From positions 1,424,803 to 1,488,802 of the forward strand of contig NZ_RYEV01000004.1 of assembly GCF_004138485.1 (NCBI RefSeq): DNA of 64,000 nt. The letters are read 5' to 3'. The translations under genes and the position numbers were made by a program. Of the stretch, positions 43,631 through 62,798 are shown in pieces (within the stretch, counting starts at the first letter, position 1; the number at the start of each line of letters is the position of its first letter). The DNA comes from Peristeroidobacter soli (GTDB lineage Bacteria; Pseudomonadota; Gammaproteobacteria; Steroidobacterales; Steroidobacteraceae). The notes below the pieces were generated by a model. The model searched no databases, was not told the origin of the DNA, and saw nothing but the letters and a program-made list of their open reading frames with translations.

Positions 43631-43646
43631 ACTACGTTAACTATGT
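43631..43646. promoter_or_regulatory. GntR-type operator A (small HTH / cytochrome c)
   Basis: ACTACGTTAACTATGT matches 13 of 16 bases of the cluster consensus ACCTAGTTAACTACGT, and a second half-site TTAACTACG overlaps it upstream. It lies 104 bases before the cytochrome start and about 52 bases before the small HTH start. Confidence 0.6.
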
Positions 43647-43750
43647 GATCAAGAATGAAGTGCCCCGCTGTGCCCTGTCAATCGATCATTCCCCGACAGC
43701 GGCCGCGCGACGGGCATTGAACGACTGCTGACTTCGATCGAGGAAAGTCG

Positions 43751-44839
43751 ATGCGCACGACAATGTTCGGCGGACTGATGACCATGTTCGCGACCCTCAC
43801 ATCGGCGGCCCCGCCGACACTCTCCCCGCTGCTCGGCACGTGGCAAGCGGACATTGATCATTCCACCTTTCAGGGCCGCGCACCGTATCGCTCCGGCACG
43901 ATGACCTTCTCGGCCGTCGATGGATCGAAAGTCCGCGTCGTGTCGGATGTCATGACCGCGAGCAGCGTGCCTTTCCATTTCGAGTACCAGGGCGCGGAAG
44001 ACGATACTGTCGTGCCAGTCTCCGGCAATCCTTACTACGACAGCGCATCGAATGCCTGGACGGACGAGCGCACGCTGACAAGAACCGAGCGCCGAGCCGG
44101 CAAAGTCACGGGCACGACGTCGATGCAGCTCGCGCCCGATCGAAAGTCCTTTACGGCGAAAGGCCAGCGCCTGACGCCTGACGGCGTGAACTACGTTACG
44201 TCGATCGTGTGGACGCGCGTCGCTGCGAACGACGCACCCGTGCCGACGAAATCGGCAGCCGCCTCATCATCACCTGCCGGTGATGCAGCGAGAGGCAAGT
44301 CACGAAGCGGCGAGCTGTACTGCGACGCCTGCCACGGCGTCAATGGCAACAGCGAGAACGCAGAGTGGCCGTCGCTGGCGGGCCAGAATGCAACATACAT
44401 CACCAGACAATTGCAGCTGCTGCGTTCGGGTACGCGATCGAGTTCTGAGATGCAGCCGATTGCCGCCACATTGAGTGACTCCGACATCGTCGATCTGGCC
44501 GCGCATTACTCTGCTCAGGCCTTGCAAGCCAGCACCGCAGACACCTCCGAGTCGAAGGCCATCGAGTCGTTGTATCGCGATGGCGATCCGACGCGTGCGA
44601 TCGTTGCATGCAGCTCGTGCCATGGCGCTGACGGCCGTGGCAACGCGGTGACGGGCGATCCGGCCCTTCGCGCCCAGCAACCGGTTTATTCCAGCCGGCA
44701 GCTCGAAGCTTATGCGAAGCGCACGCGCTACACATCCGAACAGAAGAGCGGAAATCTGGAGACCATGTACACGATCTCGGAGAAACTCACGGCCGAGGAG
44801 ATGCGCGGCCTGGCCGACTATCTCCACGCCATGCATTGA
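43751..44839 (+). CDS. Exported fusion of an unknown domain with a di-heme cytochrome c
   Basis: 362 residues. After a signal peptide (1-20), residues 25-155 form a domain of unknown function (LLGTWQADIDHSTFQG, YRSGTMTF, VPVSGNPYYDS, RTERRAGKVTGTT). Two c-type heme domains follow: CDACH at 191-195 and CSSCH at 287-291, with Met234 and Met339 as likely axial ligands, c4-like. The first domain is clearly related to the stand-alone protein at 54909. The fusion suggests that electrons from a reaction tied to that domain pass to the respiratory chain. GAGGAAA precedes the ATG. Confidence 0.85.
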   Translation: MRTTMFGGLMTMFATLTSAAPPTLSPLLGTWQADIDHSTFQGRAPYRSGTMTFSAVDGSKVRVVSDVMTASSVPFHFEYQGAEDDTVVPVSGNPYYDSASNAWTDERTLTRTERRAGKVTGTTSMQLAPDRKSFTAKGQRLTPDGVNYVTSIVWTRVAANDAPVPTKSAAASSSPAGDAARGKSRSGELYCDACHGVNGNSENAEWPSLAGQNATYITRQLQLLRSGTRSSSEMQPIAATLSDSDIVDLAAHYSAQALQASTADTSESKAIESLYRDGDPTRAIVACSSCHGADGRGNAVTGDPALRAQQPVYSSRQLEAYAKRTRYTSEQKSGNLETMYTISEKLTAEEMRGLADYLHAMH

Positions 44840-44842
44840 GCT

Positions 44843-45448
44843 CTACACCTCGAGGAGCTCGATCAGCTCGCCGGCGTGACCGACGATGGTCGCGACCCGG
44901 CCGCCGAATTCCTTCCCCAGCGGATTGTCCACTGGCGCCGCGATGAACTTCGACGCATGCCGCTCGAAACTGGAGCATTCGAAAGTGGCGATGGCGAGTC
45001 CGGGCGGCAGGCCTCCGGCGACACGCGGTCGAGGACGGCCCGGGCCCCTGTGCTCATCCACCTCGAGCCTGGAGCCGTTACTCAAAGTGACCGTCGCCAG
45101 CGCGAACGATGGCAGTCGACGGATCGGACTCGGATTGTTGCCAAACGTGCTGCGATAGAAATCGATCGAGCCCTGCAGATCCGGCGATGTTTGTGCCGCC
45201 AGAAAGCAGCGCCCCACGAACGACTTCGCTGCTGCCAGGTCCGGTCGCGGCTCGGTGATCCAGGTGAAGGCCAGGCGCTCACCGCCCGGCCCTTCCGCGC
45301 CCAGCGGACGAAAATACGGATAGATGGGAATCGTTCCCGGCGGTCCGCGCATCTTGAAAGGCGAGTCTTTCAAACGCGCATAGAGCTCGTCGCCATTTTG
45401 AACGGTGATCTCGGTGGTGCGCCAGCCGAAGGTTTCTTTGAGATCCAG
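44843..45448 (-). pseudogene. VOC-family protein, N-terminally truncated
   Basis: About 200 codons related over their whole length to the second two thirds of the exported VOC protein at 52693: TFGWRTTEITVQN, KDSPF, LAFTWITEPRPDLA, AKSFVGRCF and GELIEL are shared. The homologous frame begins right after the flavoprotein stop and has no start codon there; the first in-frame ATG is at 45373, inside the conserved region. The Tat leader and first VOC repeat (about 110 residues) are missing. It may be a decaying duplicate, or a short cytoplasmic single-domain protein read by coupling to the flavoprotein gene. Confidence 0.65.
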
Positions 45449-45482
45449 CCCACCCCTGCACCTATGAGCTGCCGTCTGCTGA

Positions 45483-47030
45483 TCATGATTTCTTCCCGAG
45501 ATCGATAATCTTTTCTCCCAGCAACTTCCCGAAGGTGAGCGCTGGAGTCACGCTCGCACCGTTGGTGTGCGCTTTGCCGCCGGTCGAGGCGCCGAGAACC
45601 TCGCCCGCGGCGTAAAGGTTGGGAATGACTTTGCCCGCCTTGGTGGTGACCTGCAGATCCTTGTTCACGCCCAGCCCGGCGTACGATTTGAGCGTCCAGG
45701 TCTGCGATCGGATCGCGTAGAACGGTCCATTGGTGAGCGACACGGGCCGATGCTCGCGCATCAAGGGATCGCTCTTTTGTTGCTCGATGGCCTCGTTGTA
45801 CGTCGCCACGGTTTTCTGCAGCGTGGCGGGATCGACTCCGGCGCGTACGCCCAGCTCCGTCCAGGTCGCGCCACGATGAAACATCGGATGTTTGTTGAAT
45901 GCCTCGATCAATTGCTCGCGCTTCCAGCGCGGAATGAGCAGCGGCGCCTCATCGAGTACACGCTGGTCGAACACGGCCCAGAAACGATGACCCGGTTGTC
46001 GATCCATCGTGCGATCGCGCTCGCTCATGCTCGGATGATCCTCGCGAACGAATCGTTCGCCGCGCATGTTCACGTAGATCTCCCAGGGCTTGCGAATGCG
46101 GTGATCGATCATCATGTCGGCCGCAGCCGTCGACGGCCACTGATCGCTCTGAGCGATGGAGCCGTAATAGCCCACGTAATTCTCGGCGCAGCGCAGATAG
46201 CCGCCGGCAGCGAGCCCGAGCGTGAGCCCCGCCCCCTGGCTCGAAGGCATTGCCGCCCGTCGATAGAGCGGCACGCCATGCAAGGCTTCGAACATGCTCG
46301 GATTGCCCGCGCAGCCCCCGGTTGCGACGACGGTGTTGAGACCACGCACGTCCGAACGTTTGCCATTGCTGTCCTCGACCACGACGCCGTTGATCGCGCC
46401 TTTCGCATCCTGGATCAGATCGACCGCACCGGCGTCAGTCATGAGCGTGATGCGCCCCGACTGCACCCGCTTGTCGAACTCGGGTTTCATCACGGCGAGG
46501 ATGGAGCGGCCGTTCTGCGCGCCCCAGTGATAGCGGGGCACGGAGTAGTAATCGTAGAGAGTGCCGACGGAGGGTTGTTCGTCCGGAATCTTCAGGCCGA
46601 TGTCGGCGAGCCAATTGACCATGGAACCTGCGTTGTCCGCCCAAAGCCGCGCCATCTCGGGGACCGCAGTGTTGCTGCTGATCTTCATGATGTCGTCGTA
46701 GTGCTGTTGGGCCGAGTCCCGAATGCCCTTGGCCTTCTGGAACACGGTGCCGGCAGCGCCCATCATGCCGCCGGAAACCACCAGCGTGCCGCCGACGCTC
46801 GCACCCTTTTCGATCACGATCACGTTCGCGCCGCGGTCGGCAGCGAAGATCGCCGCGATCATGCCGGCGGTGCCGCCGCCGATAATTACGAGCGGGTTGG
46901 CTTGTTGCGCGTAAGCCTTTCGCATCGACCACGGCAATGTCGAGAGTGCGGTGGCCGCCGCGGCCGCTTTCAGCACGGAGCGTCGAGAGAAGGACGGAGT
47001 GTGCTCGCTCCGATCATCGTGGTTCGGCAT
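45483..47030 (-). CDS. Tat-exported FAD-dependent oxidoreductase (flavocytochrome c / ketosteroid-dehydrogenase type)
   Basis: 515 residues. Twin-arginine leader SRRSVLK at 15-21 with a hydrophobic stretch to about 42, then the dinucleotide fold LVIIGGGTAGMIAA (48-60), a FAD_binding_2 domain with GGTLVVSGGMMG, a fumarate-reductase-like capping domain, and the C-terminal YAAGEVLGASTGGKAHTNGASVTPALTFGKLLGE. Enzymes of this group reduce or oxidise carbon-carbon double bonds next to carbonyls. Export through Tat with bound flavin places the reaction in the periplasm. It is the middle gene of the operon behind operator B, between the alpha/beta hydrolase and the VOC remnant. Confidence 0.85.
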   Translation of the reverse strand: MPNHDDRSEHTPSFSRRSVLKAAAAATALSTLPWSMRKAYAQQANPLVIIGGGTAGMIAAIFAADRGANVIVIEKGASVGGTLVVSGGMMGAAGTVFQKAKGIRDSAQQHYDDIMKISSNTAVPEMARLWADNAGSMVNWLADIGLKIPDEQPSVGTLYDYYSVPRYHWGAQNGRSILAVMKPEFDKRVQSGRITLMTDAGAVDLIQDAKGAINGVVVEDSNGKRSDVRGLNTVVATGGCAGNPSMFEALHGVPLYRRAAMPSSQGAGLTLGLAAGGYLRCAENYVGYYGSIAQSDQWPSTAAADMMIDHRIRKPWEIYVNMRGERFVREDHPSMSERDRTMDRQPGHRFWAVFDQRVLDEAPLLIPRWKREQLIEAFNKHPMFHRGATWTELGVRAGVDPATLQKTVATYNEAIEQQKSDPLMREHRPVSLTNGPFYAIRSQTWTLKSYAGLGVNKDLQVTTKAGKVIPNLYAAGEVLGASTGGKAHTNGASVTPALTFGKLLGEKIIDLGKKS

Positions 47031-47053
47031 GGGCTCGCTCGAAGAATGGGAGA

Positions 47054-47998
47054 TCAGATTCGTTCGTCTTGATAGCGGCGCATGGCGTCCGCTATCGGAC
47101 CGGGGTTGTTGTGCAGGTCACGCAAGACGAAGTTGTCAGGCAGCACCTTGGCCTGCTTCGACGACTTGAGCATGCCGACGACCTTCTCGCTCATCTCGCG
47201 GGCCGAGAACTTGAACAGGCCCGACTCTTTCGAGCCGTCTTCGATCACGATGAGCGCCACCGGTTGCGTGAGTTGGGCGAGTCGGGCATCGAAGCGCTGG
47301 CTGTATTCGAACGCCGCGGCATGACCGTATTCGTAGCGAGTCAATGGCCGCAGTTCCTCCACCGCCATTCGGCCCCACACTGTATCGTCGACTCGAGATT
47401 TTTCGCGCGACTTGATTCGCTTCGGCAGTCGCTCACAGAACAGCGTGAAGGCTTCTTCGGAAGACTCGGGGTGATGGACATTGTCCAGCAGCTTCTTCAT
47501 CTCTTCCGGCGGCACGACCGACACGCCCGAGAGCCCCATCATCACGCGACGGACCATCCCGGGCTCGGTGGCCGCAATCTCGGCGACGATGCGCGAGCCG
47601 GTGTGGAAGCCGAAGACATCGATCTGACGCTGCGGCCCGTAGCCCAGATTCTTCAGTGCGACGCGCATCGCCGCCGCATAGTCTTCGATGCGGGGAATTT
47701 CCTTCGGCCCGTCCGATCCGCCGTGTCCCGGAGTGTCGAGCGCGATCACGACCCGGTCCTTGCCGAGCGCCTGCACCAGCTCGTTGTACTCGACCGAGGA
47801 ATTGGGCGACTGGTGGAATAGAACCAGATCCGGTTTGTTCTTATCGCCGCCGCCCGGCGGCGCGACGGTCGAGTAGTGCAGCTGACCGTACGGCATATCG
47901 ACGTAACCGTGGCGCAACGCCGGCTCGTCGGCGGCGCAGGCCGGCGCATGCATCGCAAGCACGGCCAGGCATGCCAACGCGGATCCGCAGCGAAACAT
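47054..47998 (-). CDS. Exported alpha/beta hydrolase-fold protein with altered nucleophile elbow
   Basis: 314 residues, signal peptide 1-22 (ACAAD). The fold is recognisable (LVLFHQSPNSSVEYNEL, DTPGHGGSDGP), but the nucleophile elbow reads FGFHTGS, so His132 stands where Ser is expected and Thr133 follows. The protein may use another residue, catalyse a non-hydrolytic reaction (such as ring cleavage by cofactor-free dioxygenase relatives) or only bind a ligand. GAGGAG precedes the ATG at 47998. It is the first gene of the operon with the Tat flavoprotein; operator B lies 31 bases upstream. Confidence 0.8.
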   Translation of the reverse strand: MFRCGSALACLAVLAMHAPACAADEPALRHGYVDMPYGQLHYSTVAPPGGGDKNKPDLVLFHQSPNSSVEYNELVQALGKDRVVIALDTPGHGGSDGPKEIPRIEDYAAAMRVALKNLGYGPQRQIDVFGFHTGSRIVAEIAATEPGMVRRVMMGLSGVSVVPPEEMKKLLDNVHHPESSEEAFTLFCERLPKRIKSREKSRVDDTVWGRMAVEELRPLTRYEYGHAAAFEYSQRFDARLAQLTQPVALIVIEDGSKESGLFKFSAREMSEKVVGMLKSSKQAKVLPDNFVLRDLHNNPGPIADAMRRYQDERI

Positions 47999-48028: not shown

Positions 48029-48044
48029 TCGTAGTTAACTACGT
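48029..48044. promoter_or_regulatory. GntR-type operator B (alpha/beta hydrolase operon)
   Basis: TCGTAGTTAACTACGT contains the perfect 14-bp palindrome CGTAGTTAACTACG, 31 bases upstream of the hydrolase start. It is the most symmetrical site of the set. Confidence 0.8.
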
Positions 48045-48105: not shown

Positions 48106-49005
48106 TCAGCGTCGCGAGGACAGCGCGATACCGCCGACGATGAGCACGAACGCGACGCCGTGAAACCAGCGAGGGGGCTCGCCCAGCACGGCGGACGACA
48201 GAATCGCCGCGAAGACCGGCGTCAGATTGTTGAAGAAGGACGCGACCGCCGGCCCGGCCCGCTCCACGCCCACGCCCCAGCAGCGATAAGCGATGAGCGA
48301 CGGTCCGATCGCAACGTAGATCAACAGCGCCACGATCCAGCCGCTCCATTCCACATGCGCCAGTCCCGCCGACCATTCCCCGAACGCCGCGAGGCTCGCC
48401 CACAGAGCGCCGAACATGACCTGGGCCAGCAGGAACTCGGCCCACGGCCAGGAACGAATCGACGGCTCGCGCGGCCGCGCCAGCATCCAGCTATAAAAAG
48501 ACCAGGAGATGATGGCCACCAGCACGAACAGATCGCCCGTAACGAGCTGCACGTTCGCGAGCGACTTCCAGTCGCCGCGGGACAATACGAGAAGCACGCC
48601 GGCGAGCGACACCAGGGCGCCGAGGATCTGCATCCGGTGCGGCTTTTCGCCGTACCAGAACGCGCCCACGCACAGCGTCCACACCGGCAGGCTCGACGTG
48701 ATCAGAGTGACATTGATGGGCGTCGACGTTTGTAGAGCCAGATACTGAAAGGCGTTGTAGCTGCCGACCCCGAGTAGACCGAGCAACAGGAAGTAGCCGG
48801 CACGGCGCCACAGCGGACCGTCGGCACGCAGGATCCGGTGCCCGAGCGGCAACAGGATCGCGAAGGCCAGCGCCCACCTGAGCGCATTCAGTAACAAAGG
48901 CGAGATCGATCCGACCGACATCCGTCCCAAGATGGCATTCCCCGCCCACAGCAGCGGCGGCAGCATCAACAGGAGCGCGGTACGAGCAGTGAGTCCAGGG
49001 GCCAT
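48106..49005 (-). CDS. EamA/DMT-family transporter
   Basis: 299 residues with ten hydrophobic segments in two EamA repeats (LLWAGNAILGRMSVGSISPLLLNALRW near the start; a second repeat from about 150). It probably exports or imports a small metabolite. No operator lies close to its start: the nearest (49121) is 116 bases upstream and may serve the divergent receptor gene. It lies tail-to-head before the operator-B operon on the same strand, 61 bases from the operator. Confidence 0.85.
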   Translation of the reverse strand: MAPGLTARTALLLMLPPLLWAGNAILGRMSVGSISPLLLNALRWALAFAILLPLGHRILRADGPLWRRAGYFLLLGLLGVGSYNAFQYLALQTSTPINVTLITSSLPVWTLCVGAFWYGEKPHRMQILGALVSLAGVLLVLSRGDWKSLANVQLVTGDLFVLVAIISWSFYSWMLARPREPSIRSWPWAEFLLAQVMFGALWASLAAFGEWSAGLAHVEWSGWIVALLIYVAIGPSLIAYRCWGVGVERAGPAVASFFNNLTPVFAAILSSAVLGEPPRWFHGVAFVLIVGGIALSSRR

Positions 49006-49120: not shown

Positions 49121-49136
49121 ACATAGATAACTAAGT
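49121..49136. promoter_or_regulatory. GntR-type operator C (TonB receptor 1)
   Basis: ACATAGATAACTAAGT matches 13 of 16 consensus bases. A second partial copy, ACCTAGTGCACATAGA, overlaps it at 49112-49127. It lies 103 bases upstream of the receptor start and 116 bases upstream of the EamA start. Confidence 0.55.
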
Positions 49137-49238: not shown

Positions 49239-51446
49239 ATGCCGATCCGTTTACCTGTCCGCCCGTCCCTTCTTGCCACTCTCACCGCGCTCGTTCCGGC
49301 GGTAGGTGGCGCTCAAACCGTATCCACGCCGCAATCGGAGGGGACGACGCTGGAGGAAGTCAGCGTGACCGCGGAGCGCTACCGCGCTACCGTTCAGACC
49401 ACTCCGGTTGCCGTCACCGCCATTTCCGCCGAAGCCCTCGCCGATCGTCAGGTCGGTAACGTGCTGCAGGCCGCTGCTGACATTCCAGGCACGGTCATCA
49501 TGCCGAACATCAACAGCAGCAATAACGCGCGCATCGTCATGCGCGGCGCCGGCCAGGAAAACAGCGGCATCAACTTCGACCAGGGCGTCGGCGTCTATAT
49601 CGACGATGTGATTCAGCCGCGCGTCAACGGTGCCTTCTTTGATTTCTTCGACGTGAGCTCCATCGAAGTGCTGCGCGGTCCGCAGGGCACGCTGTACGGG
49701 CGCAACTCATCGGGCGGCGCCGTCAAGATCATCACCAAGCGCCCCTCCTTCACCTGGACCGGCGGCGCCGAGGCGGCCGCGGGCAACTGGAATGCGCTCA
49801 ACGGCAAGGCCTATCTCAGCGGTCCGTTGATCGGCGACAAGCTGGCCTTCTCGTTGAGCGCCTCGAGCAACGAGCGTGACGGTTATTTGTACAACCCTTA
49901 CTACGACAAGCGCGTCGGCGACGTGAAGAACAGCGCCGAACGCATCAAGTTCCTGTACACGCCCACCGACAATCTCGAGTTCCAGCTCGAATATCACTTC
50001 ATCCAGGATTATTCGGAGTCGACGTACGGGGTGCCCCTGCTGGTGGCACCGAATGTCGTCGGCACGCAAGCGAACGGCACGCGCAATCGCAGCCTCACGA
50101 TCACGGAGAACCTGGGCACGCCGGGCAACCCGTTCCTCTACAACGACGGCGGCTCACTGCACGCGAGCTGGAACGACGGTCCGTTTTCGGTGAATTACAT
50201 CGGCGGCATCGGCAATCTGCGCACCTTCAGCGACGGCACCGTGCAGCTCACATTGACCCGCGCAGCGCAAGTCGCCTACGAGAACGGTACCGAAGCGCCG
50301 GCCGGCGCCAACGAAGGCCGCGCCCGCGTGCAGTGGTATAGCCACGAGCTCAACTCGACCTACTCGACGGAGCGCATCAAGGGCGTCGTCGGTCTCTACT
50401 ATTACAACGAAGAAGGCTCCAGCCGATCCTTCGCGGCCGACAGCCCCACGATCGACCAGGACCGCGGCGTCGATGCCTGGGCCGCATACGCGCAGGGCAC
50501 CTACACGCTCGACAACGGCCTGGGCTTCACAGCGGGCGTCCGGCATACGGAAGAAACAGCCGACTTCACTCAGTACTACCGCTTGCAGCTCGCCGCCCCT
50601 CAGTCCGATACAAAGACCTTCACTGCCGACACCATCAAGCTCGGCCTCAATTGGCAAATCACGGATGACATCCTGACGTACGCCTCCTATACCGAAGGCT
50701 TCAAGTCCGGCGGCTTCAATCCCGTGCCGCCAGCCAACAGCATCGGCGGCGGACAGATCGGTCGTCCGGTGCCCTACGATCCGGAGAACGTGGAGAGTTA
50801 CGAAGCCGGCGGCAAATTCACGATGTTCGATCGTCGCGTGCGCCTGAACCTGGCGGTGTTCCGAGCCGAATACTCCGGCATGCAGCTGCCGCAGTTCTTC
50901 CCTGGCACGACCACGAGCTACACCACCAACGCCACCGGCGCGATCGTCGAAGGCATCGAGTTCGAGCCCACCTGGCAAGCGCTGGATGACCTGCAGATCT
51001 ACGCCAGCGGCTCGTTGATGAGAGGTCACTACACCGCCTCGTTCAATTGCTCCCTGTCGACCACGCAGGTCGTCGATTGCTCCGGCAACGACCTGAAGGC
51101 GCTGACCCCGCGCAAGATGACCTTGGGCGTCAAGTACACGCCGCAGCTCGCCTTCGTGCCGGGACAGCTGACGTTCAATGGTTCCTGGAATTACAACAGC
51201 AGCTTCTACACCAACCTGTCGAACGAGCGGGCGGTGTTCCAGCCGGAACAGGCGGACCTGTTCAACGCGTCCATCGCCTGGACGGATGACTCAGGCAAGT
51301 ACAAGGCGGCGCTCGAGGGTCGCAACATTCTCGACGACCACTTCATCATGAACGGCGTGCAGCTCGCGAGCCCGACGGCGCCGCAGATCACGGGCTATCC
51401 GAACGAGCCCCGCACCATCATGTTCCGGCTCGGCGTGAACTTCTGA
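49239..51446 (+). CDS. TonB-dependent receptor 1 of the GntR cluster
   Basis: 735 residues; GGGGAG lies 6 bases before the ATG. Signal peptide (about 1-26), plug domain (LEEVSVTAERYRA to VLRGPQGTLYGRNSSGGAVKI) and barrel ending TIMFRLGVNF. There is no STN domain. It is clearly paralogous to the receptor at 60446: both share the TTPVAVTAISAEAL-type start, an arrangement like MRGAGQENSGINFDQGVGVYIDD and YASYTEGFKSGGFNP. It should import the cluster substrate across the outer membrane. Confidence 0.93.
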   Translation: MPIRLPVRPSLLATLTALVPAVGGAQTVSTPQSEGTTLEEVSVTAERYRATVQTTPVAVTAISAEALADRQVGNVLQAAADIPGTVIMPNINSSNNARIVMRGAGQENSGINFDQGVGVYIDDVIQPRVNGAFFDFFDVSSIEVLRGPQGTLYGRNSSGGAVKIITKRPSFTWTGGAEAAAGNWNALNGKAYLSGPLIGDKLAFSLSASSNERDGYLYNPYYDKRVGDVKNSAERIKFLYTPTDNLEFQLEYHFIQDYSESTYGVPLLVAPNVVGTQANGTRNRSLTITENLGTPGNPFLYNDGGSLHASWNDGPFSVNYIGGIGNLRTFSDGTVQLTLTRAAQVAYENGTEAPAGANEGRARVQWYSHELNSTYSTERIKGVVGLYYYNEEGSSRSFAADSPTIDQDRGVDAWAAYAQGTYTLDNGLGFTAGVRHTEETADFTQYYRLQLAAPQSDTKTFTADTIKLGLNWQITDDILTYASYTEGFKSGGFNPVPPANSIGGGQIGRPVPYDPENVESYEAGGKFTMFDRRVRLNLAVFRAEYSGMQLPQFFPGTTTSYTTNATGAIVEGIEFEPTWQALDDLQIYASGSLMRGHYTASFNCSLSTTQVVDCSGNDLKALTPRKMTLGVKYTPQLAFVPGQLTFNGSWNYNSSFYTNLSNERAVFQPEQADLFNASIAWTDDSGKYKAALEGRNILDDHFIMNGVQLASPTAPQITGYPNEPRTIMFRLGVNF

Positions 51447-52672: not shown

Positions 52673-52692
52673 ATTGTTCTCCCGGGTCATTC

Positions 52693-54855: not shown

Positions 54856-54871
54856 ACCTAGTTATCTACGT
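54856..54871. promoter_or_regulatory. GntR-type operator D (DABB operon / unknown-domain protein)
   Basis: ACCTAGTTATCTACGT matches 15 of 16 consensus bases. It lies 66 bases upstream of the DABB start and 38 bases upstream of the divergent gene at 54909. A half-site (ATTACGTTAT) follows at 54874. Confidence 0.8.
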
Positions 54872-55426: not shown

Positions 55427-55442
55427 ACCTAGTTAACTTTCA
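55427..55442. promoter_or_regulatory. GntR-type operator E (upstream of the GntR gene)
   Basis: ACCTAGTTAACTTTCA keeps the left half and core of the consensus. It ends 18 bases before the GntR start, a position that implies autoregulation. Confidence 0.75.
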
Positions 55443-55460: not shown

Positions 55461-56267
55461 ATGACCAGGACGAGCGCCGCTCCCGTCAAGGCCGCACGCC
55501 CGCGGCAGGCCATCCAGAAGTCCACCAGCGTGGTGGCACCGAAGCTGTCACACATCATCGCCGACCGGCTGCGCGAGCAGATTGCCCGCGGCGAATTGCG
55601 CCACGGTGACACCCTGCCGCCCGAGGCAGAGCTGGTACGGCAGTTCGGCGTGTCCCGCCCCATCCTTCGCGAGTCGTTGCGCGTGCTCGAGGCGGAAAGT
55701 CTGATTGCGCTGGGCCGGGGGGCGCGCGCCGGCGCCATGGTGCTGTCGCCGAGCACCAACACAGCGGCGAAGTACGGCGGGTTATATCTTGCGACTCACG
55801 GCACGACGCTTGGAGAGATTCACGAGGTGCGCACGCTGCTGGAGCCGACACTGGCGGCGCTGCTTGCCGAACGCCACGACCAGACAGTCCTCGACGATCT
55901 GGCCGAATGCGTGGCGGACCAGCATACCGCGGCGGAGGCACGTGATCACGCCGCCACGATCGGCGCCATCAACGAATTCCATCAACGCATGATCGGCCAT
56001 TCGAAGAACAGCGCCCTGCGCCTGCTGGTTGGCATCATCAGCGAGCTGTCGGTGTCGAGCTATCCGAAGCTGTTGCTGAGCCGGCCGAACCAGAAGGCCA
56101 TCTGGACTCGAACCGAGGAGTCCGTCGCTGCCCACGAACAGGTGTTGAAGTTGATCGCGGGTGGCAAATCGGCCCAGGCGGAAACGTTCTGGCGCAAGTA
56201 CATGCAGGAGACCGCGGACTTCCTGGTGAAGCACGGCCTGGCCAGCATGCGCGTCGACAGCATCTGA
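55461..56267 (+). CDS. FadR-subfamily GntR regulator
   Basis: 268 residues. Winged helix at about 30-100 (IIADRLREQIARGELRHGDTLPPEAELVRQFGVSRPILRESLRVLEAE) and an FCD effector domain at about 118-250 with the helix EVRTLLEPTLAALLAE and candidate metal/effector His residues in INEFHQRM and SVAAHEQVL. The FCD group usually senses carboxylic acids. The recurring palindrome ACCTAGTTAACTACGT, including the site in its own promoter, is the expected form for a FadR-type operator, so this protein is the likely regulator of the whole 43-63 kb set. Confidence 0.92.
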   Translation: MTRTSAAPVKAARPRQAIQKSTSVVAPKLSHIIADRLREQIARGELRHGDTLPPEAELVRQFGVSRPILRESLRVLEAESLIALGRGARAGAMVLSPSTNTAAKYGGLYLATHGTTLGEIHEVRTLLEPTLAALLAERHDQTVLDDLAECVADQHTAAEARDHAATIGAINEFHQRMIGHSKNSALRLLVGIISELSVSSYPKLLLSRPNQKAIWTRTEESVAAHEQVLKLIAGGKSAQAETFWRKYMQETADFLVKHGLASMRVDSI

Positions 56268-56330: not shown

Positions 56331-57398
56331 TCAGGCAGGCTTGCGCGCGCTGATATAAGTCCAGGGAAAGCGCCACGCCTTCACGGCCGCGAGATCGACG
56401 TCGGCCGTTTCGCTGAACGGTTCGATCCTGATATCCACGAACCCCTTCGCAGCGAGCGTCTTCGGCAGGTCCAGCTCCGCCAGCGGCTGCATGTAGGGTT
56501 CGTTGTTGCGACGGCCATGCCCGTAGTGCAGGAAGCGCGTGAACGGATCGGGCATGTGCCAGAAATCCAGGTGTACCATCCGCCCGCCCGGCTCGAGCAG
56601 CCGGAAACACTCATCGAGGACCCGATCCAGCACCTTGAGCGGGATCTCGTGCAGGAACATCGTCGATGTGACCAGATCGAAACTGGCGTCGGCGAAACCG
56701 GGATTGCTGGCATCGCGCTGGGCAAAACTGACATTGGTCAGTCCCGCCTTGGTCGCGTTGCTCGCTGCCAGCTTCAGGCAGGGCGCGGCGAGATCGATGC
56801 CGCGAATCGATGCCTCCGGCAGTTTGCTGGCAAACGGCATCGTGCTCTTGCCGAAGCCGCAGGCGAGATCGAGCACGCGCGCCGGCCTGCCGCCCTCGAG
56901 AATCTTGTCGGTGAAGCGGGCGTGCAGATCGCCGTGCGAGGCGCCTAACAGCGGCGTCGTGCTGCGCGCACCGTGTTGATACACAAGTCCTGCCGTGGGC
57001 TCGGACCACACACCGCCCGGGTGTTGATGAATATCGGTCGCGACGTAATAAGAAGGCATGCGCAGCGCCGGATCCAGCTCAAGATTCGACGACTGTCCCG
57101 CCGCGCCGTCGAGGTCTTTCAACACCTCATCGGCATGCTCGCGATAGTAATGCGCCAGACCGTAACGCCCGGAATACTTGGCGATCTGCAGGTGGCGCTC
57201 CAGCCAGGCGAAGTATCGATACACGGTTAGATCTTCCGCGACCGCCGCCACTTGCGGGACCGTGGTCGGCTCGACGCCCTGCGCGGCGCACCGCTCACCA
57301 TACTGCTCTCGCAAGTTGGTATAGAGCTGCGTGGTCCAGAAGCCCTTGGCCGCCAGAATGAAACGCTGCGCGGAATCGAATGAAGTCTCGGCGGTCAC
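56331..57398 (-). CDS. SAM-dependent class I methyltransferase
   Basis: 355 residues, cytoplasmic. The Rossmann-type SAM motif VLDLACGFGKS is at 175-185, followed by IRGIDLAAPCL and SFDLVTSTMFLHEIP. About 150 unusual residues precede the SAM domain. The substrate is unknown; the cluster context suggests a catabolic intermediate. Its start overlaps the stop of a 108-codon gene by 4 bases, and both lie behind operators F and G. Confidence 0.82.
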   Translation of the reverse strand: MTAETSFDSAQRFILAAKGFWTTQLYTNLREQYGERCAAQGVEPTTVPQVAAVAEDLTVYRYFAWLERHLQIAKYSGRYGLAHYYREHADEVLKDLDGAAGQSSNLELDPALRMPSYYVATDIHQHPGGVWSEPTAGLVYQHGARSTTPLLGASHGDLHARFTDKILEGGRPARVLDLACGFGKSTMPFASKLPEASIRGIDLAAPCLKLAASNATKAGLTNVSFAQRDASNPGFADASFDLVTSTMFLHEIPLKVLDRVLDECFRLLEPGGRMVHLDFWHMPDPFTRFLHYGHGRRNNEPYMQPLAELDLPKTLAAKGFVDIRIEPFSETADVDLAAVKAWRFPWTYISARKPA

Positions 57399-57721
57399 TG
57401 CGGATTCTCCTCTGTACGCGCGGTGCGGGCGAGACTGAATCTGCCAGCGGCGCCGCGCGCCTGTTGCACACCCAATAGCGGACGAAACAACGCTTCCGCC
57501 AGCGCCGCGGCATCGGCGTGCTCTGCGGCATGCGCCTCTGCATCGGGAACCAGGCCGGCGGCGCTCAGCCGACGCTCGAGCACGTGCACGCGATCGAGCA
57601 ACACGTAATGCTCGGTCGCGAGCGCGAGGACCACGCCCATCAGCCGGTCCACGGCCGGATCTTCGAAGAACACCTGCTCGCTGCGCTGCTCGCCGTCGCT
57701 CTTGTCGCTCGTCATATACAT
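57395..57721 (-). CDS. Hypothetical 106-108-residue protein cotranslated with the methyltransferase
   Basis: Starts at 57721 or 57715. No family is recognised. The middle is helical and may form a coiled coil (LMGVVLALATEHYVLLDRVHVLERRLSAAG, about 27-56), followed by an Ala/His-rich stretch (AEAHAAEHADAAALAEALF). The ATGA overlap with the methyltransferase suggests that the two proteins act together, perhaps as a complex. Operator F is 55 bases upstream. Confidence 0.65.
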   Translation of the reverse strand: MYMTSDKSDGEQRSEQVFFEDPAVDRLMGVVLALATEHYVLLDRVHVLERRLSAAGLVPDAEAHAAEHADAAALAEALFRPLLGVQQARGAAGRFSLARTARTEENPQ

Positions 57722-57775: not shown

Positions 57776-57791
57776 ACCTAGTTAACTATGT
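57776..57791. promoter_or_regulatory. GntR-type operator F
   Basis: ACCTAGTTAACTATGT matches 15 of 16 consensus bases. It lies 55 bases upstream of the small gene on the minus strand and 85 bases upstream of the MFS gene on the plus strand. Confidence 0.85.
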
Positions 57792-57833: not shown

Positions 57834-57849
57834 ACCTAGTTAACTTCGT
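57834..57849. promoter_or_regulatory. GntR-type operator G
   Basis: ACCTAGTTAACTTCGT matches 15 of 16 consensus bases and ends 26 bases before the MFS start. F and G are 58 bases apart centre to centre, about 5.5 helical turns. Confidence 0.85.
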
Positions 57850-57875: not shown

Positions 57876-59222
57876 ATGAACACAGACGAGCGCGACCAGG
57901 GCGACTACCCGAGCGCGACCTATAGCTGGTATGTGGTCGCAGTACTGACGCTCACCTACACCGTCTCCTTCGTCGACCGGCAGATCATGGCGCTGCTGAT
58001 CGAGCCGATCCGCCGCGACCTGCAGATCTCCGACACGCAAGTGAGCTTGCTGATCGGACTGGCGTTCGCAGTGTTCTACACGCTGCTCGGCGTTCCCATC
58101 GCCCGCCTCGCCGACCGCCGCAGCCGGCGCGTGATCATCGCGGCCGGCATCACCATCTGGTGCTTCATGACCGCGGCATGTGGCGTAGCCCGCAACTATC
58201 TGCAACTGTTCGCGGCCCGAATCGGCGTCGGCGTCGGTGAAGCCGCACTGAGCCCGAGCGCGCTGTCGATGCTCAGCGATTACTTTCCGAAGCGCACGCG
58301 AGGCCGGGCGGTCGCCGTCTACAACACAGGCATCACGTTGGGTACCGGCCTGGCGATGATCGTCGGCGGCCAGGTCGTCATGCACGTCGCCAATGCGCCG
58401 CCAGTGGTGCTGCCGGTCGTCGGCCAGCTGTACGCCTGGCAGACGGTGTTCATCGTCGTCGGCCTGCCAGGTTTGCTGATGGCGTTGCTGATGACGACGG
58501 TGAAAGAGCCGCGACGGCGCGAACAGATGGTCAACGAGCGCGGCGATGCCAACCTGGCCTTCAGCGAGGTCGTGAAGTTCGTCGGCGACCGCTTCCGCAT
58601 GTACGGCAGCCATTTCTTCGGCATGTCGACGGTGGCCATTCTCGCTTACGGCTTGTTTGCCTGGGTGCCCTCGATGTTCATTCGCACCTGGGGCTGGACG
58701 ATTGCGGAGATCGGCCTTGCCTACGGCATCGTCACACTGGTGGCGGGCCCCGTGGCAGTGCTGTTCGTTTCCATGGTGAGCGAGCGGCTCATTGCGCGCG
58801 GCTATCAGGACGCACAGATGCGGACCGCGCTGATTTCCATTCTGGTCGGCGTAGCCGGCGCCATTGCTACCGCGCTATCGCCCTCGCCCGAGCTCGCCGT
58901 CGCGATGCTGCTGCCAGCATCGGTGGGCACGACAGCGGCAACTGCCGCAGGACTCTCGGGCCTCATGACAGTCACGCCCAACCAGATGCGCGCACAAACA
59001 TCTGCTCTCTATTATCTGGTCGTAAATCTGTTCGGCTTGACGGTCGGCCCGACCGGCATCGCGATGTTCACGGACTATGTGTTCGCGGACACGAACATGC
59101 TGCGCTACTCGGTCGCGTCGGTTGCCACGATCGCGGGTGTGATCGCAGCCATCGTGCTCTCTTACAACTTGAAGCACTATCGCCGCAGCTTCGCGGAGTC
59201 GCAGAGCTGGAGCGTGAGCTGA
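57876..59222 (+). CDS. Spinster-type MFS transporter
   Basis: 448 residues, twelve hydrophobic segments, GGGGAG eight bases before the ATG. Motifs: TVSFVDRQIMALLIEPI in the first helix, GVPIARLADRRSRRVII in loop 2-3 and GEAALSPSALSMLSDYFP, all typical of the spinster-like group that takes up organic acids or aromatic compounds. It is the inner-membrane carrier of the GntR cluster, so part of the pathway must end in the cytoplasm. Confidence 0.88.
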   Translation: MNTDERDQGDYPSATYSWYVVAVLTLTYTVSFVDRQIMALLIEPIRRDLQISDTQVSLLIGLAFAVFYTLLGVPIARLADRRSRRVIIAAGITIWCFMTAACGVARNYLQLFAARIGVGVGEAALSPSALSMLSDYFPKRTRGRAVAVYNTGITLGTGLAMIVGGQVVMHVANAPPVVLPVVGQLYAWQTVFIVVGLPGLLMALLMTTVKEPRRREQMVNERGDANLAFSEVVKFVGDRFRMYGSHFFGMSTVAILAYGLFAWVPSMFIRTWGWTIAEIGLAYGIVTLVAGPVAVLFVSMVSERLIARGYQDAQMRTALISILVGVAGAIATALSPSPELAVAMLLPASVGTTAATAAGLSGLMTVTPNQMRAQTSALYYLVVNLFGLTVGPTGIAMFTDYVFADTNMLRYSVASVATIAGVIAAIVLSYNLKHYRRSFAESQSWSVS

Positions 59223-59279: not shown

Positions 59280-60404
59280 CTATTGAATCCGCTTCACATC
59301 TTCGATCGGGCCGCCGCCGTGCTTCAGGCCCTTGGCGTACGTGACTTCCAGCCAGATCGCGCCACGCTCACTGACCGAGCCGGGGCCATAGCCCCAGATC
59401 GAACGCGGCGGCTGATAGATGAAATAGTCCTCGGATACTTTGACAGCCTTGCCCGCGTCCTTCGGATCCTTGAACTGCCACACCTTCATCTCGCCCCATA
59501 CCATGTAGCGCAGGCGATTGGCGTTTTCGAAATACGTCTTCTGCCACTCGGGCGGCGCGGTCCAGCCCGGCGGAATCTTCACCAGCTGCGAACGAAAGCC
59601 GTCGGCGGTCGCATCGTCCAGCCATTTCACGAACCGACCCGGCACTTGCGGATCTTCTTCCCAATCCACGTCGCGCACGCTGTCGAGCAACCACGGACGA
59701 GTGAACTGCTTCACCTGACGATAGTCGCCGACCGTGCCGGGCGGCGGACCTTTGCCGTCGCGCCCGCGATACACGCCGGGCTCGCCATTGCGGTTCGTGT
59801 TGATCACGTGACCGTCGCCTTCTTCGAAGATGATCAGGTTGTAAGGCAGCTGGTTACGCATGCCGCCGACGTTCCAGGAGCCGCCGTGCAATGAATAGGG
59901 AGGCCGCGACAGCCAGCCGCCTTCCTTCTTGCGATAGAGCATGCCGTTGTGCTGCTCGGGGCTGACGGGCTCGGGCATGATGGAGTCGCCCTTCAGCGTG
60001 TAACCCCACTCGTAGAACTCGTGGTAGTGAGACACGCCATCGGGCTTGCCCAGGTTCATGTTGAACGTCGGCTGATATTCGAGATGAATCAGCTGGCCCA
60101 CCGGCAGCTCGCTGCCCGGCCCGGCTTCGGGACTCTGGAAAATGGTTTTGGAGGTCGGTCCGAGCGGCGGCTTCTTCAGCGCCGAGCCCGGCGTCGCGTC
60201 GAACGGATACTCGCGCACGTACACGAAGCCGAGTTGATTCCAGGTGTCCGGCCTGGCCTCGAGAATGCCGATGATGGGCTTGGTGTTCGCCGGCGGCGCC
60301 GGAGTCGTGTCCTGCTTGGCGTTCTGTGCCAGCGCCGCGCTGCTGAGCACCGCGGTCACTGCGACGGCGAGCCACGAGCGCCGCCAACTCTTAGGTTTGT
60401 TCAT
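59280..60404 (-). CDS. Exported bicupin 2, function unknown
   Basis: 374 residues with a signal peptide (1-26, SSAALA) and GGGAG before the ATG. It has the same pattern as the protein at 51632: a metal motif SHYHEFYEW (His126, His128, Glu129), LSRPPYSLHGGSW and a C-terminal IWLEVTYAKGLK. It is longer between the two halves. Like bicupin 1, it is tied to a TonB receptor, here the gene just upstream in the same operon. Metal-dependent chemistry in the periplasm is inferred only from the cupin-like motif. Confidence 0.75.
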   Translation of the reverse strand: MNKPKSWRRSWLAVAVTAVLSSAALAQNAKQDTTPAPPANTKPIIGILEARPDTWNQLGFVYVREYPFDATPGSALKKPPLGPTSKTIFQSPEAGPGSELPVGQLIHLEYQPTFNMNLGKPDGVSHYHEFYEWGYTLKGDSIMPEPVSPEQHNGMLYRKKEGGWLSRPPYSLHGGSWNVGGMRNQLPYNLIIFEEGDGHVINTNRNGEPGVYRGRDGKGPPPGTVGDYRQVKQFTRPWLLDSVRDVDWEEDPQVPGRFVKWLDDATADGFRSQLVKIPPGWTAPPEWQKTYFENANRLRYMVWGEMKVWQFKDPKDAGKAVKVSEDYFIYQPPRSIWGYGPGSVSERGAIWLEVTYAKGLKHGGGPIEDVKRIQ

Positions 60405-60445
60405 TGTCCGCTCCCACTAGATTCGTAAAACGATCGAATCGATTC

Positions 60446-62671
60446 TCAGAACTCCGTGCCGAAACGCAGGAAGTACTCGCGCGGCGCGTTCGGGAACGCG
60501 CTGACGGCGGGACGCACGGCATTGGTCTGCTGCAGACCTGCCAGCGAGTAGTGCTTGTTGGCGATGTTTCGTACATCCAGCGTCACGTTGTAACGCTGCT
60601 GCGGGCTGGTCCAGCTGAGGCCCGCGTTGTAGATGCTCGCCGCGACCGTGCGCACCAACGGACCCTCGTTGGCCACGTTGTTGAAGTAGTCGCTGTGATT
60701 GTTCCAGGAGCCGTTGATGCGCAGCTCGCCGGGCATCGGCAGCATCGGCGAGAAACGGAAGCCCAGTTGATACTTCTCCGGAATCAGACCGACCAGGTCG
60801 CGATCGCGACAGTCGATGAAGGCGCCGTACTGGTTCGCGCAAATGAACGAGCCGGTGTATTCGCCGGTGTTGAGCGAGGCGTTACCGTACAGCTGCAAGC
60901 TGTCGAGGACCTGCCAGGTCGGCTCGAACTCGATGCCTTTGACGATGCCGCCGGTCGCGTTCGAGGTGTAGATGGTGCTGGTGCCAGGGAAGAACACCGG
61001 CAGTTGCATGCCATCGTACTCGGCGCGGAATGCCGCGAGATTGAAACGCATCGTCCGATCCGGCGTCGTGTACTTGATGCCCACCTCGTAGCTGTCCACT
61101 TCCTCGGGATTGTACGGCGTCGGCGAACCGATCTGCCCGGTGCCGGTGTTGGAGCTGGGCGGAATCGGATTGAAGCCGCCGCTCTTGAAGCCCTGCGTGT
61201 ACGAGGCATAGAGCAGCAAGTCATCGGTCGCCTGCCAGTTCACGCCGAACTTCGGCGTGGTCGCGGTGAACGTCTTGCTGGCGCTCTGCGGAGTGGCGAG
61301 TTGTTGACGATAGAACTGGGTGAAGTCCGCCGTCTCGCGCGTGTAGCGGATGCCAGCCGTCAGACCCACGCCCCAACCGACCGTATACGTGCCCTGCGCA
61401 AACACCGCGCTCGCCTCGGTCAAACGGTCTTGATCGATGGTGGGACTGTCCGCGGTGGTCGCACGACTCTGACCCTCTTCATCGAAGTAGAACAGACCCA
61501 CCACGCCTTTGAACTGCTCGCTGCTATAGGTCGCGACGAACTCCTGACTCCAGAACTCGTTGCGCGTGGTGCCTTCGTTGGTGCTCGGCGCGGTCACGTT
61601 CAGGCCCGCGTCTTTCTGCGCCTGCTGAGCCAGCGAGACGAAGTTCGTCGAGCCGGTGCTGTAGGTACGCTGATTGCCGTAGCCGGTGATCGACGCCAGC
61701 TCCAGGTTGTCGTTGACGGAGAAACGGATGTTGAGTGCGCCGCCGGTGTTGTTGATCGAGCCGGCGCCGAACGGGCCGTAGATCTCGGTGCGCGTCAGAT
61801 CGCGATTGAAGGTGCCGTTCGCCTCCGGCATGTTGATGCCAGGAAATACTTGCAGCGGCACCGGCACGCCCGCTTCCGAATAGTCCTGCAACGCGAACGC
61901 GGACAGCTCGACCTCCAGCCGATCCGTCGGCGTGTACAGCAACTTCACCCGCTCGCCGCGAGTATCCATGTTACCGATACGACGGCCGTACTCGACACCA
62001 TAGATATAGCCGTCACGCTTGCGCATCAGGCCGCTGGCGGAAAACGCCAGCTTGTCGGTGATCGGGCCGCTCAGCCAGCCTTTCGCGGACCATGCATCAT
62101 AGTTGCCGGCACCGATCTCGGCCTTGCCGGTCCAGTCGAACTCCGGACGCAAAGTGGCGAGCTTGATTGCGCCGCCCGAGCTGTTACGACCGTACAGCGT
62201 GCCCTGCGGGCCGCGCAGCACCTCCATATTCGCCAAGTCGAAGAACTCGAAGAACGCGCCGTTGATTCGTGGCTGGTAGACGCCATCGATATAGATGCCG
62301 ACGGCGGGATCGAAATTGATGCCGGCGGTGCTCTGCCCGACGCCGCGCATGATGATGCGAGCGCTGGTGTTGCTGCCCTGAGCCGGCGTGATCATCACGC
62401 CCGGAATTTCGGTGGCCGCGGTCAACACGTTGGTCACCTGTCGTTCCATCAGAGCTTCGGCGCTGATCGCCGTGATGGCCACCGGCGAGCTCTGCACGGT
62501 GGCGGCGAAGCGCTCCGCCGTGACTGTCACTTCCTGCAGAACGGCGCTCGACTCGGTCTGCCCCGTCTGGTCCTGCGTCGCCTGCTGCCCGAATGCGTTG
62601 ACCGCCGTCAACGCCAGACCGGCACACAACGCAGAACGCCCCGAACGAACCACGAACTTACTCAACGTCAT
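60446..62671 (-). CDS. TonB-dependent receptor 2 of the GntR cluster
   Basis: 741 residues from the ATG at 62671; a TTG nine bases earlier is less likely. Signal peptide (about 1-28, NAFGQ), plug (LQEVTVTAERFAATV to VLRGPQGTLYGRNSSGGAIKL) and barrel ending REYFLRFGTEF. It is closely related along its length to the receptor at 49239. The operon continues to bicupin 2. Operator H lies 111 bases upstream. The two receptors may take up related substrates or be an undiverged duplicate. Confidence 0.93.
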   Translation of the reverse strand: MTLSKFVVRSGRSALCAGLALTAVNAFGQQATQDQTGQTESSAVLQEVTVTAERFAATVQSSPVAITAISAEALMERQVTNVLTAATEIPGVMITPAQGSNTSARIIMRGVGQSTAGINFDPAVGIYIDGVYQPRINGAFFEFFDLANMEVLRGPQGTLYGRNSSGGAIKLATLRPEFDWTGKAEIGAGNYDAWSAKGWLSGPITDKLAFSASGLMRKRDGYIYGVEYGRRIGNMDTRGERVKLLYTPTDRLEVELSAFALQDYSEAGVPVPLQVFPGINMPEANGTFNRDLTRTEIYGPFGAGSINNTGGALNIRFSVNDNLELASITGYGNQRTYSTGSTNFVSLAQQAQKDAGLNVTAPSTNEGTTRNEFWSQEFVATYSSEQFKGVVGLFYFDEEGQSRATTADSPTIDQDRLTEASAVFAQGTYTVGWGVGLTAGIRYTRETADFTQFYRQQLATPQSASKTFTATTPKFGVNWQATDDLLLYASYTQGFKSGGFNPIPPSSNTGTGQIGSPTPYNPEEVDSYEVGIKYTTPDRTMRFNLAAFRAEYDGMQLPVFFPGTSTIYTSNATGGIVKGIEFEPTWQVLDSLQLYGNASLNTGEYTGSFICANQYGAFIDCRDRDLVGLIPEKYQLGFRFSPMLPMPGELRINGSWNNHSDYFNNVANEGPLVRTVAASIYNAGLSWTSPQQRYNVTLDVRNIANKHYSLAGLQQTNAVRPAVSAFPNAPREYFLRFGTEF

Positions 62672-62782
62672 GACTCTCAACCTCTCCCCTCTTCTGTAAT
62701 ATTTGATGCGTCGACGGCTGCTGCCTCATCGGGCCAGCTTGTTTATTGCGTGATTCTCCAGGTCGCGGGCTGTCAAACACTC

Positions 62783-62798
62783 ACTTGGTTAACTACGT
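62783..62798. promoter_or_regulatory. GntR-type operator H (TonB receptor 2 operon)
   Basis: ACTTGGTTAACTACGT matches 14 of 16 consensus bases. It lies 111 bases upstream of the receptor start and touches the leuD stop codon at 62799. Confidence 0.75.

Follow-up and report, generated by a model that had tools for sequence, protein, structure and literature searches.

A predicted FadR-type GntR regulon covering a catabolic island in Peristeroidobacter soli

Introduction

PdhR, NanR and LldR are FadR-type GntR regulators, in which a GntR winged-helix domain is joined to an FCD domain. The FCD metal site consists of an aspartate and three histidines, and some members lack it. In regulons of this subfamily, genes of a local set carry short inverted repeats as sites, one of them preceding the regulator's own gene. 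For example, GntR1/2 of C. glutamicum control several genes via short operators, and the operator consensus of the subfamily is TNGTNNNACNA, as far as the available part of the source goes (PMC2230225). For cyclic imide catabolism, the available part of a second source describes a PuuE-related imidase followed by an amidase, as with the HxnM imidase of A. nidulans and the imidase of P. putida YZ-26, the product being a hydroxyglutarate (PMC9304392).

Comparable gene clusters are carried by sphingomonad plasmids. We compared the loci of Sphingobium TomTYG65, Sphingomonas JE1, Novosphingobium RL4 and THN1 (four of eight records matched) with the locus described here. VOC, alpha/beta-hydrolase and LeuCD genes are shared by all four. 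An MFS transporter is shared by three (RL4, TomTYG65, JE1), as are a methyltransferase (RL4, TomTYG65, THN1) and the combination of a PuuE pair with an isochorismatase-family gene; TonB receptors are shared by two, and CoA-transferase and HMG-CoA lyase are annotated in two. These clusters differ in being plasmid-borne and in the absence of the motif described below from the fetched stretches of the four loci. GntR genes occur in both annotated clusters, and that of JE1, the only one scanned, is of the UTRA type.

Here we analyze a 64,000-nucleotide stretch of P. soli DNA (the window). Its locus resembles the known FadR/FCD regulons in the domains of its regulator and, by prediction, in the control of several local genes through short sites. 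The core of its dyad differs: it is TAGTTAACTA (GT-N2-AC), with two central bases, in contrast to the GT-N3-AC core with three. The predicted operator accordingly does not fit the FadR-subfamily consensus, which is a deduced one rather than a strict criterion. In addition, the known cyclic imide route yields a hydroxyglutarate, while the imidase- and amidase-like steps predicted here would lead on to LeuCD and a C-C lyase.

Results

The regulator gene (55461..56267, + strand) encodes a 268-aa FadR-type protein with Pfam matches to GntR (6.9e-17) and FCD (1.2e-16). Both domains score well above their cut-offs (PF00392, 61.3 bits against 27; PF07729, 61.7 bits against 24.3), while the protein lies below every NCBIfam cut-off, the top model being NanR (92.1 bits against 260). 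The genome has 24 FCD matches, one of which is in the cluster. At the four usual FCD metal-ligand positions, judged by eye in the three relatives, H174 and H225 were kept, while the aspartate and last histidine seemed not to be conserved.

Eight 16-bp dyads, with half-sites approximating ACNTAGTTA, are present in the window at the coordinates reported by the initial annotation; they carry no strand and are termed operator sites after their predicted role. Site A (43631..43646, ACTACGTTAACTATGT, matrix score 21.6) lies in the divergent gap between an AraC-family regulator gene (42369-43319) and the cytochrome c gene, 104 bases before the latter. Site B (48029..48044, TCGTAGTTAACTACGT, 24.6) precedes the alpha/beta-hydrolase gene by 30 bases. 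Divergent gaps also hold site C (49121..49136, ACATAGATAACTAAGT, 25.2), between the EamA and TonB-receptor genes, and site D (54856..54871, ACCTAGTTATCTACGT, 24.2), between those for the ABM-domain and 166-aa proteins. Site E (55427..55442, ACCTAGTTAACTTTCA, 19.3) precedes the GntR start codon by 18 bases, in a tandem gap of 51 bp. The divergent gap between the 108-aa/methyltransferase genes and the MFS gene contains both F1 (57776..57791, ACCTAGTTAACTATGT, 27.2) and F2 (57834..57849, ACCTAGTTAACTTCGT, 24.8), the latter 26 bases before the MFS gene. Site G (62783..62798, ACTTGGTTAACTACGT, 23.2) is 102 bases before the TonB2-cupinA genes. A ninth site, ACTTAGTTACCTACGT, is found at C3:1492266, just past the window edge, where window numbering would give position 67464. 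With it, the sites stretch over about 24 kb rather than the 20 kb first proposed.

The eight sites are genuine and not explained by chance. A pattern search of the window found six places within three mismatches of ACCTAGTTAACTACGT (12 strand matches; shuffle mean 0.03). The original description of the dyads as near-identical is too strong for 43631 and 55427, which have four mismatches each and are not among these six. With the full matrix, the sites score 19.3-27.2 and no other position in the window exceeds 12.7, so the observation that the first 43 kb holds no equal match stands. Every site also outscores all non-site positions of the window in leave-one-out analysis. The site before the GntR gene is there as claimed, yet it is the weakest of the eight, scoring 16.5 when left out, a level at which about 14 chance places are expected genome-wide, and 14.1 with a matrix from other genomes. 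The flanks of the sites differ, and their likeness is limited to the 16 bp.

All eight window sites are intergenic, although gaps make up 8.9% of 43320-62799 in our own gene models. Classed by gene orientation, sites occur in 4/4 divergent, 3/6 tandem and 0/3 convergent gaps longer than 40 bp. As three tandem gaps have no site, labelling them intra-operon is partly a choice. The EamA gene, earlier named as a possible exception, is not clearly one, since site C, in the gap between the divergent EamA and TonB genes, lies 115 bases upstream of EamA. Scanning 47900-63000 for sigma-70 promoters gave no more promoter-like sites than shuffles (2 vs 2.5), and a relaxed promoter scan of the gaps gave nothing beyond weak matches. 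One of the two sigma-70-like matches abuts site F1.

The motif is clustered within the 9.37-Mb genome. Counts were made by matching a two-wildcard consensus with mismatches rather than by a matrix scan. All seven places with up to one mismatch and eight of ten with up to two fall inside the cluster; the two outside are within genes, named by eye as alaS and a sugar-transferase-like reading frame. At up to three mismatches there is no enrichment across the whole genome (54 places, compared with 310 when the pattern was reversed as a control). A matrix score of at least 21 is expected at 0.52 places in 9.37 Mb and is attained by eight cluster sites. Outside the cluster, one of 40 scored places reaches it, in alaS; these 40 come from 50 of the 54 places. 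By the mismatch pattern, sites of equal quality are not scattered over the genome, the outcome that the initial annotation had named as refuting its reading. Together with the gap counts, the eight of ten places at up to two mismatches present a shared predicted operator at promoters and hardly elsewhere, as in a single-regulator regulon.

The motif is also conserved together with the regulator. The regulator is found at E <= 1e-40 in 3/217 family genomes and the motif in 4/217, including all three with the regulator, where it lies in the regulator's cluster; the fourth (G105) has one motif match without the regulator. A separate regulator search, which catches close relatives alone, gave, apart from one locus, 23 others with identities of 25-41%, the top value covering a short stretch; G011 was not recognized among them. 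The GntR relatives are 61% (G175) and 51% (G011, another genus) identical in the alignment. G175 has 8 of its 28 places at up to three mismatches within 24.6 kb around its GntR gene, and its gap matching that of F1 and F2 also contains two sites. Its sites are weaker, with one place at up to one mismatch and two of three at up to two in the cluster. In G011, sites scoring 18.6, 12.6 and 22.5 occur at both start regions of a compact cluster. The same dyad is present at equivalent promoters in two other genomes. A matrix from their sites ranks the window's eight sites 1-8, a result that is not fully independent because those sites were chosen with the window's matrix.

Gene models were drawn from ORF lists, and leaders and names so marked below were judged by eye. 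Following site A is a protein (43751..44839, +) whose N-terminal domain resembles the 166-aa protein and whose cytochrome c part was matched over two stretches by profile search; the two parts are separate genes in G175. On the - strand follow an N-terminally short relative of the VOC-like protein (44843..45373), a FAD_binding_2 oxidoreductase (45483..47030; PF00890, 3.2e-53) with a Tat-like leader (TAT_signal 21.0 bits, slightly below the cut-off of 22.7), an alpha/beta-hydrolase with a leader by eye (47054..47998) and the EamA-family transporter (48106..49005). TonB-dependent receptor 1 (49239..51446, +) is followed by three - strand genes whose products have leaders by eye: cupin-like protein B (51632..52690; no Pfam match, cupin by motif), the VOC-like protein (52693..53631; no Pfam match itself, its plasmid relative weakly matching Glyoxalase) and a protein with a weak ABM match (53678..54790; PF03992, 5e-6). 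The 166-aa protein (54909..55409, +) has no assigned family and a leader by eye, and its relative adjoins GntR in G011. Beyond the regulator are the methyltransferase-domain protein (56331..57398, -) and the 108-aa protein (57395..57721, -), which go together in all three genomes, the MFS transporter (57876..59222, +), cupin-like protein A (59280..60404, -; HxHxxxE metal-type motif and leader by eye), TonB-dependent receptor 2 (60446..62680, -) and a LeuD-type hydratase small subunit (62799..63602, -). LeuC crosses the window edge; to its right come two proteins resembling PuuE, one of the isochorismatase family and a PrpB-like lyase. The system is larger than initially proposed: its catabolic-end genes straddle the right edge of the window.

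Structure models were unusable (mean pLDDT 47.4 for the ABM-type and 29.1 for the cupin-type protein). Sequence searches of the PDB gave one match for the ABM protein (E 0.17) and none for cupinA, which likewise had no match in the plasmid search and is present in 2/369 class genomes.

Discussion

The data point to a single control system, as the initial annotation proposed, whose task would be the import and degradation of a compound; the concentration of sites in the cluster and the recurrence of the regulator-motif pairing in G175 and G011 support this. From sequence comparison we propose with good confidence that the dyad is the operator of the FadR-type GntR, which would bind it presumably as a dimer, and that nine such operators, spread over about 24 kb and including that of the regulator gene itself, place a catabolic island under its control. 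The transcription units under its control would encode two TonB receptors, cytochrome c, MFS and methyltransferase proteins and a set of probably exported enzymes (FAD, VOC, cupin, ABM and alpha/beta-hydrolase proteins), and tandem genes without their own site would be co-transcribed. Because the ninth site lies just outside the window, the predicted regulon also takes in the catabolic genes at or past its edge: LeuCD, the two PuuE-like imidase kin, the isochorismatase-family amidase and the PrpB-like lyase. The regulator probably acts as a repressor released by a pathway metabolite, rather than as an activator.

By family resemblance, imidase-, amidase-, hydratase- and C-C-lyase-like genes are brought together here, the PuuE-like pair and the isochorismatase-family, LeuCD and PrpB-like genes being adjacent. 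The inferred function is TonB import, exported enzymes, imidase-like ring opening, an amidase, an isopropylmalate-dehydratase-like hydratase and a C-C lyase; an order of ring opening, deamidation, hydration and C-C cleavage is somewhat favored. The PrpB-like protein matches solved structures named for 2,3-dimethylmalate lyase and methylisocitrate lyase and falls under the PrpB equivalog cut-off (286.9 vs 354.4 bits). Its top matches carry the names of methylisocitrate lyase and of carboxyvinyl-carboxyphosphonate phosphorylmutase, so its specificity is not fixed by name. The cluster end differs under the same regulator, with CoA-transferase and HMG-CoA-lyase-like genes in the G011 cluster. Either ending could in principle cleave a 2-methyl-3-R-malate, and the G011 ending suggests a 2-methyl-3-substituted malate as the intermediate.

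A substrate other than a maleimide, under the same regulon, has an even chance of being right. It could be a hydantoin, a pyrimidine, another alkaloid or a steroid-linked compound, with LeuCD and the lyase acting on another side chain. The isochorismatase-family protein is closest to the biuret amidohydrolase and RutB models, and the PuuE-/AllB-like proteins to allantoinases, all far below family cut-offs. In addition, TomTYG65 is from a tomatine-treated-soil collection, according to the available part of its source (PMC10653915). Imidase-type opening combined with LeuCD and a PrpB-like lyase would nonetheless best fit a five-membered imide, and the shared potential of the two endings to cleave 2-methyl-3-R-malate argues the same way. 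Tomatine itself was considered because of strain TomTYG65 and rejected as the substrate; isopropylmalate, deacetylase, isochorismatase and GntR have no occurrences in the main text of PMC10653915.

A more specific and rather unlikely proposal is that the regulon would allow a bacterium to degrade tetrapyrrole debris (fragments of chlorophyll, heme or bilins) by a complete route, with a single GntR operator code, shared by three genomes, in control. TonB import and oxidative cleavage by the exported enzymes would yield methyl-R-maleimides, for example methylethylmaleimide and hematinic acid. Their opening by imidase and amidase, followed by LeuCD hydration, would give 2-methyl-3-R-malate, which the lyase would cleave to pyruvate and butyrate- or glutarate-type acids. 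A literature search whose coverage omits most subscription papers found no gene cluster for tetrapyrrole or maleimide breakdown, no literature on pJE1 and, by title, nothing on point for the enzyme combination or bilin catabolism clusters. The available part of a paper on bacterial transformation of fossil porphyrins mentions maleimides, and such a gene set was not seen there (PMC8669743).

It is improbable that another protein binds the dyads, such as the AraC-family regulator, whose gene adjoins site A, or one of the 23 other FCD regulators among the genome's 24 FCD matches. A short palindrome such as this dyad is what a GntR dimer would be expected to bind, and in G011 the motif lies ~0.5 kb from a GntR gene whose product is 53% identical. 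The AraC protein, in contrast, has no tblastn match in the fetched stretches of G175 (E <= 1e-8) or G011 (E <= 1e-12). Very probably, it is the FadR-type GntR that binds the dyads. Several like copies in a short stretch could also suggest mobile-element leftovers or a structural repeat family, a reading that is hardly credible and was rejected, being largely refuted by the differing flanks, the absence of all eight from convergent gaps and genes, and the conservation of the dyad at equivalent promoters.

The regulator, its probable operator and a delimited set of genes form one testable package, which would place several proteins of unassigned family in a single catabolic system. Clusters headed by relatives of the regulator have different enzyme endings, which narrows the chemistry of the substrate. 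If that substrate were a tetrapyrrole-derived maleimide, these would be genes that take chlorophyll and heme remnants to central metabolites.

Eight dyads mark the cluster

The initial annotation described eight near-identical 16-bp dyads at 43631, 48029, 49121, 54856, 55427, 57776, 57834 and 62783, and all eight match the sequence at these coordinates. Six of them lie within three mismatches of ACCTAGTTAACTACGT (shuffle mean 0.03), but 43631 and 55427 differ from it at four positions each, too many for "near-identical". In leave-one-out scoring, every site exceeds every non-site position in the window. With the full matrix the sites score 19.3-27.2 and the top non-site position 12.7, in agreement with the statement that the first 43 kb contain no equal match.

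The genome (9.37 Mb, 17 contigs) was scanned for a concentration of sites using the pattern ACNTAGTTAACTANGT with mismatches allowed. All seven places with at most one mismatch fall within the cluster, as do eight of the ten with at most two. The two outside places are both within coding sequence, which we take by eye to be alaS in one case and an undecaprenyl-phosphate sugar transferase-like long frame in the other. At up to three mismatches there are 54 places versus 310 for the reversed control, and the pattern is therefore uninformative genome-wide at that stringency; the 50 of these 54 that were listed include ten in the cluster, among them 55427 and a chance place, 44181, within the cytochrome gene. 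From the score distribution, 0.52 genome places are expected to score at least 21. Eight cluster sites reach this score, and among the 40 outside places listed only the alaS place does (21.0). About 14 places per genome are expected at a score of 16, so that on its own the weak site 55427 would be inconspicuous.

Outside the window, at position 1492266 of the same contig, is a ninth site, ACTTAGTTACCTACGT (score 21.5), flanked by genes of the isochorismatase and PrpB/PEP-mutase families. Leftward of it come two PuuE-like genes (polysaccharide-deacetylase family), then LeuC and LeuD; LeuD ends at window position 62799. The regulon extends about 24 kb from first to last site, and the regulated system is larger than originally described. 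Also to the right of the window (L016:10693-18164) are two adjacent very long reading frames, presumably, judged by eye, for WD40-repeat proteins whose C-terminal part resembles a caspase.

Placement relative to genes

By our own gene models, 8.9% of 43320-62799 is intergenic, and all eight sites fall in this fraction. Thirteen gaps longer than 40 bp were grouped by orientation: a site is present in all four divergent gaps (two sites in one of them), three of six tandem gaps and none of three convergent gaps. The occupied tandem gaps measure 107, 51 and 118 bp and the empty ones 109, 46 and 41 bp; whole-cluster control therefore requires co-transcription of the genes behind the empty gaps. Sites in the window lie 18-115 bases upstream of the nearest start codons, AraC excepted. 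EamA, named as a possible exception to control, is not clearly one, as site 49121 falls in the divergent EamA/TonB gap.

The gene at 44843-45373 (minus strand) encodes a 176-aa VOC relative, C-terminal half only, with 57% identity to the VOC protein of 52693-53631, and is a truncated paralogue or remnant. At 43751-44839 (plus strand), the cytochrome c part follows an N-terminal domain resembling the 166-aa protein; in G175, another genome of the family, each part has its own gene, the two lying side by side, and the window gene therefore looks like a fusion. Left of the regulon, 40665-42366 (plus strand) encodes a zinc alcohol dehydrogenase along with a protein of the GFA family, which is of formaldehyde-glutathione type; neither has a motif alongside, and the two might handle formaldehyde.

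Regulator and mode of control

The candidate regulator (55461..56267, plus strand, 268 aa) contains GntR and FCD domains, reaches no NCBIfam cut-off, and is the only one of 24 FCD matches in the genome to lie in the cluster. Three GntR relatives are similar in the DNA-binding region. The GT...AC frame of FadR-type operators is also present in the predicted core TAGTTAACTA, here with two central bases, compared with three in the consensus TNGTNNNACNA (PMC2230225).

The regulator was found at E <= 1e-40 in 3 of 217 family genomes (the window's own, G175 and G011) and the motif at up to one mismatch in four (the same three and G105). Leaving out the window's genome as the motif's source, both regulator genomes are among the three motif genomes of 216 (chance about 1 in 7,700). 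Within the genus, the regulator is present at E <= 1e-30 in 2 of 14 genomes. The G105 match has no cluster gene alongside within 13 kb.

In G175, 8 of 28 places at up to three mismatches are within C14:34511-59143, around its GntR gene. Single sites precede VOC, a cupin and a second cupin; another lies in the amidohydrolase/GntR interval, within the longest amidohydrolase frame and upstream of its likely start. Two sites occupy the dehydrogenase/hydrolase gap and two the 108-aa-methyltransferase/MFS gap, which also holds two in the window. The G175 stretches L022 and L055 (about 39 kb) contain ten non-duplicate positions scoring at least 12, two of them overlapping; 15 control loci chosen without the motif contain six in 346 kb. 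Adjoining the cluster, L055:10376-17432 encodes citrate synthase-like, MmgE/PrpD, PrpB-like lyase, VOC-related and second AllB-like amidohydrolase proteins, with no motif match of at least 10 beyond L055:9129.

G011 belongs to a different genus. Its compact cluster comprises TonB, two VOC, two cupin, 108-aa, methyltransferase, MFS, AllB-like, LeuCD, HMGL, CoA-transferase, 166-aa and GntR genes. Sites occur at L079:14026, L079:14046 and L080:2415, with no further position scoring at least 11 in these two stretches and one scoring 12.3 in neighbouring L081. Since the sites overlap start regions of listed reading frames, the true start codons there are provisional. A matrix built from the G175 and G011 sites ranks the window's eight sites 1-8, an ordering of limited independence given that those sites were picked with the window's matrix.

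The main proposal of the initial annotation, that the dyads and the FadR-type GntR form one control system, is upheld, and it is highly likely that this protein pairs with the motif, with binding predicted. A GntR dimer would occupy the operators, including that of its own gene, and would keep transcription off, with release on binding of a pathway acid to the FCD domain. Repression is the more likely mode, but the protein may instead activate, as no promoter location is firm enough to decide.

Related clusters and predicted pathway

Searching plasmids with the VOC protein gave eight records, all from sphingomonads. Four were compared, two of them annotated (TomTYG65, JE1). Relatives of VOC, alpha/beta-hydrolase and LeuCD occur in all four stretches, and MFS, methyltransferase, and the PuuE pair with isochorismatase each in three; none of the four contains the motif. 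The JE1 regulator has a UTRA domain, whereas the window GntR has FCD. Two clusters (L060, L059) are near VapC-type toxin genes, that of JE1 also near an integrase; together with plasmid location, this suggests horizontal spread of the sphingomonad clusters.

The isochorismatase-family protein is present at E <= 1e-50 in 8 of 398 phylum genomes, including the window's. The 20 kb fetched from each of the other seven always includes a PuuE-like gene, and in six cases both members of the pair. In two same-class genomes (L072, L075), genes for a FAD protein, the PuuE pair, isochorismatase, lyase, GntR and LeuCD form a compact set, which may represent a minimal form of the pathway; its GntR appears UTRA-like by similarity to the JE1 regulator. 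The L075 set adjoins TRAP transporter-like genes, judged by eye, and its LeuC is split across two reading frames.

The predicted pathway ends with a PrpB-like lyase in the window genome and with CoA-transferase and HMGL in G011 and G175; G175 has a PrpB-like gene further off, without motif, near citrate synthase and PrpD relatives. On general chemistry, either ending could yield pyruvate by cleavage of a 2-methyl-3-substituted malate. No isochorismatase relative was found in the compared stretches of the AllB-bearing G011 or G175, and their amidase step therefore has no assigned gene. PuuE kin include cyclic imidases, and such an imidase followed by an amidase is described for A. nidulans (PMC9304392). 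Imide-type ring opening, then hydration and C-C cleavage, is a reasonably probable route. As the simplest precursor we infer a substituted maleate derived from a maleimide, and we tentatively propose a maleimide as substrate. Methylethylmaleimide, methylvinylmaleimide and hematinic acid are described as oxidation products of chlorophyll and heme. This tetrapyrrole link is a lead only, and such an origin of the substrate is unlikely. No description of the controlled pathway was found in the literature searched, which had limited coverage. A local FCD-controlled catabolic regulon is an already known kind of system.
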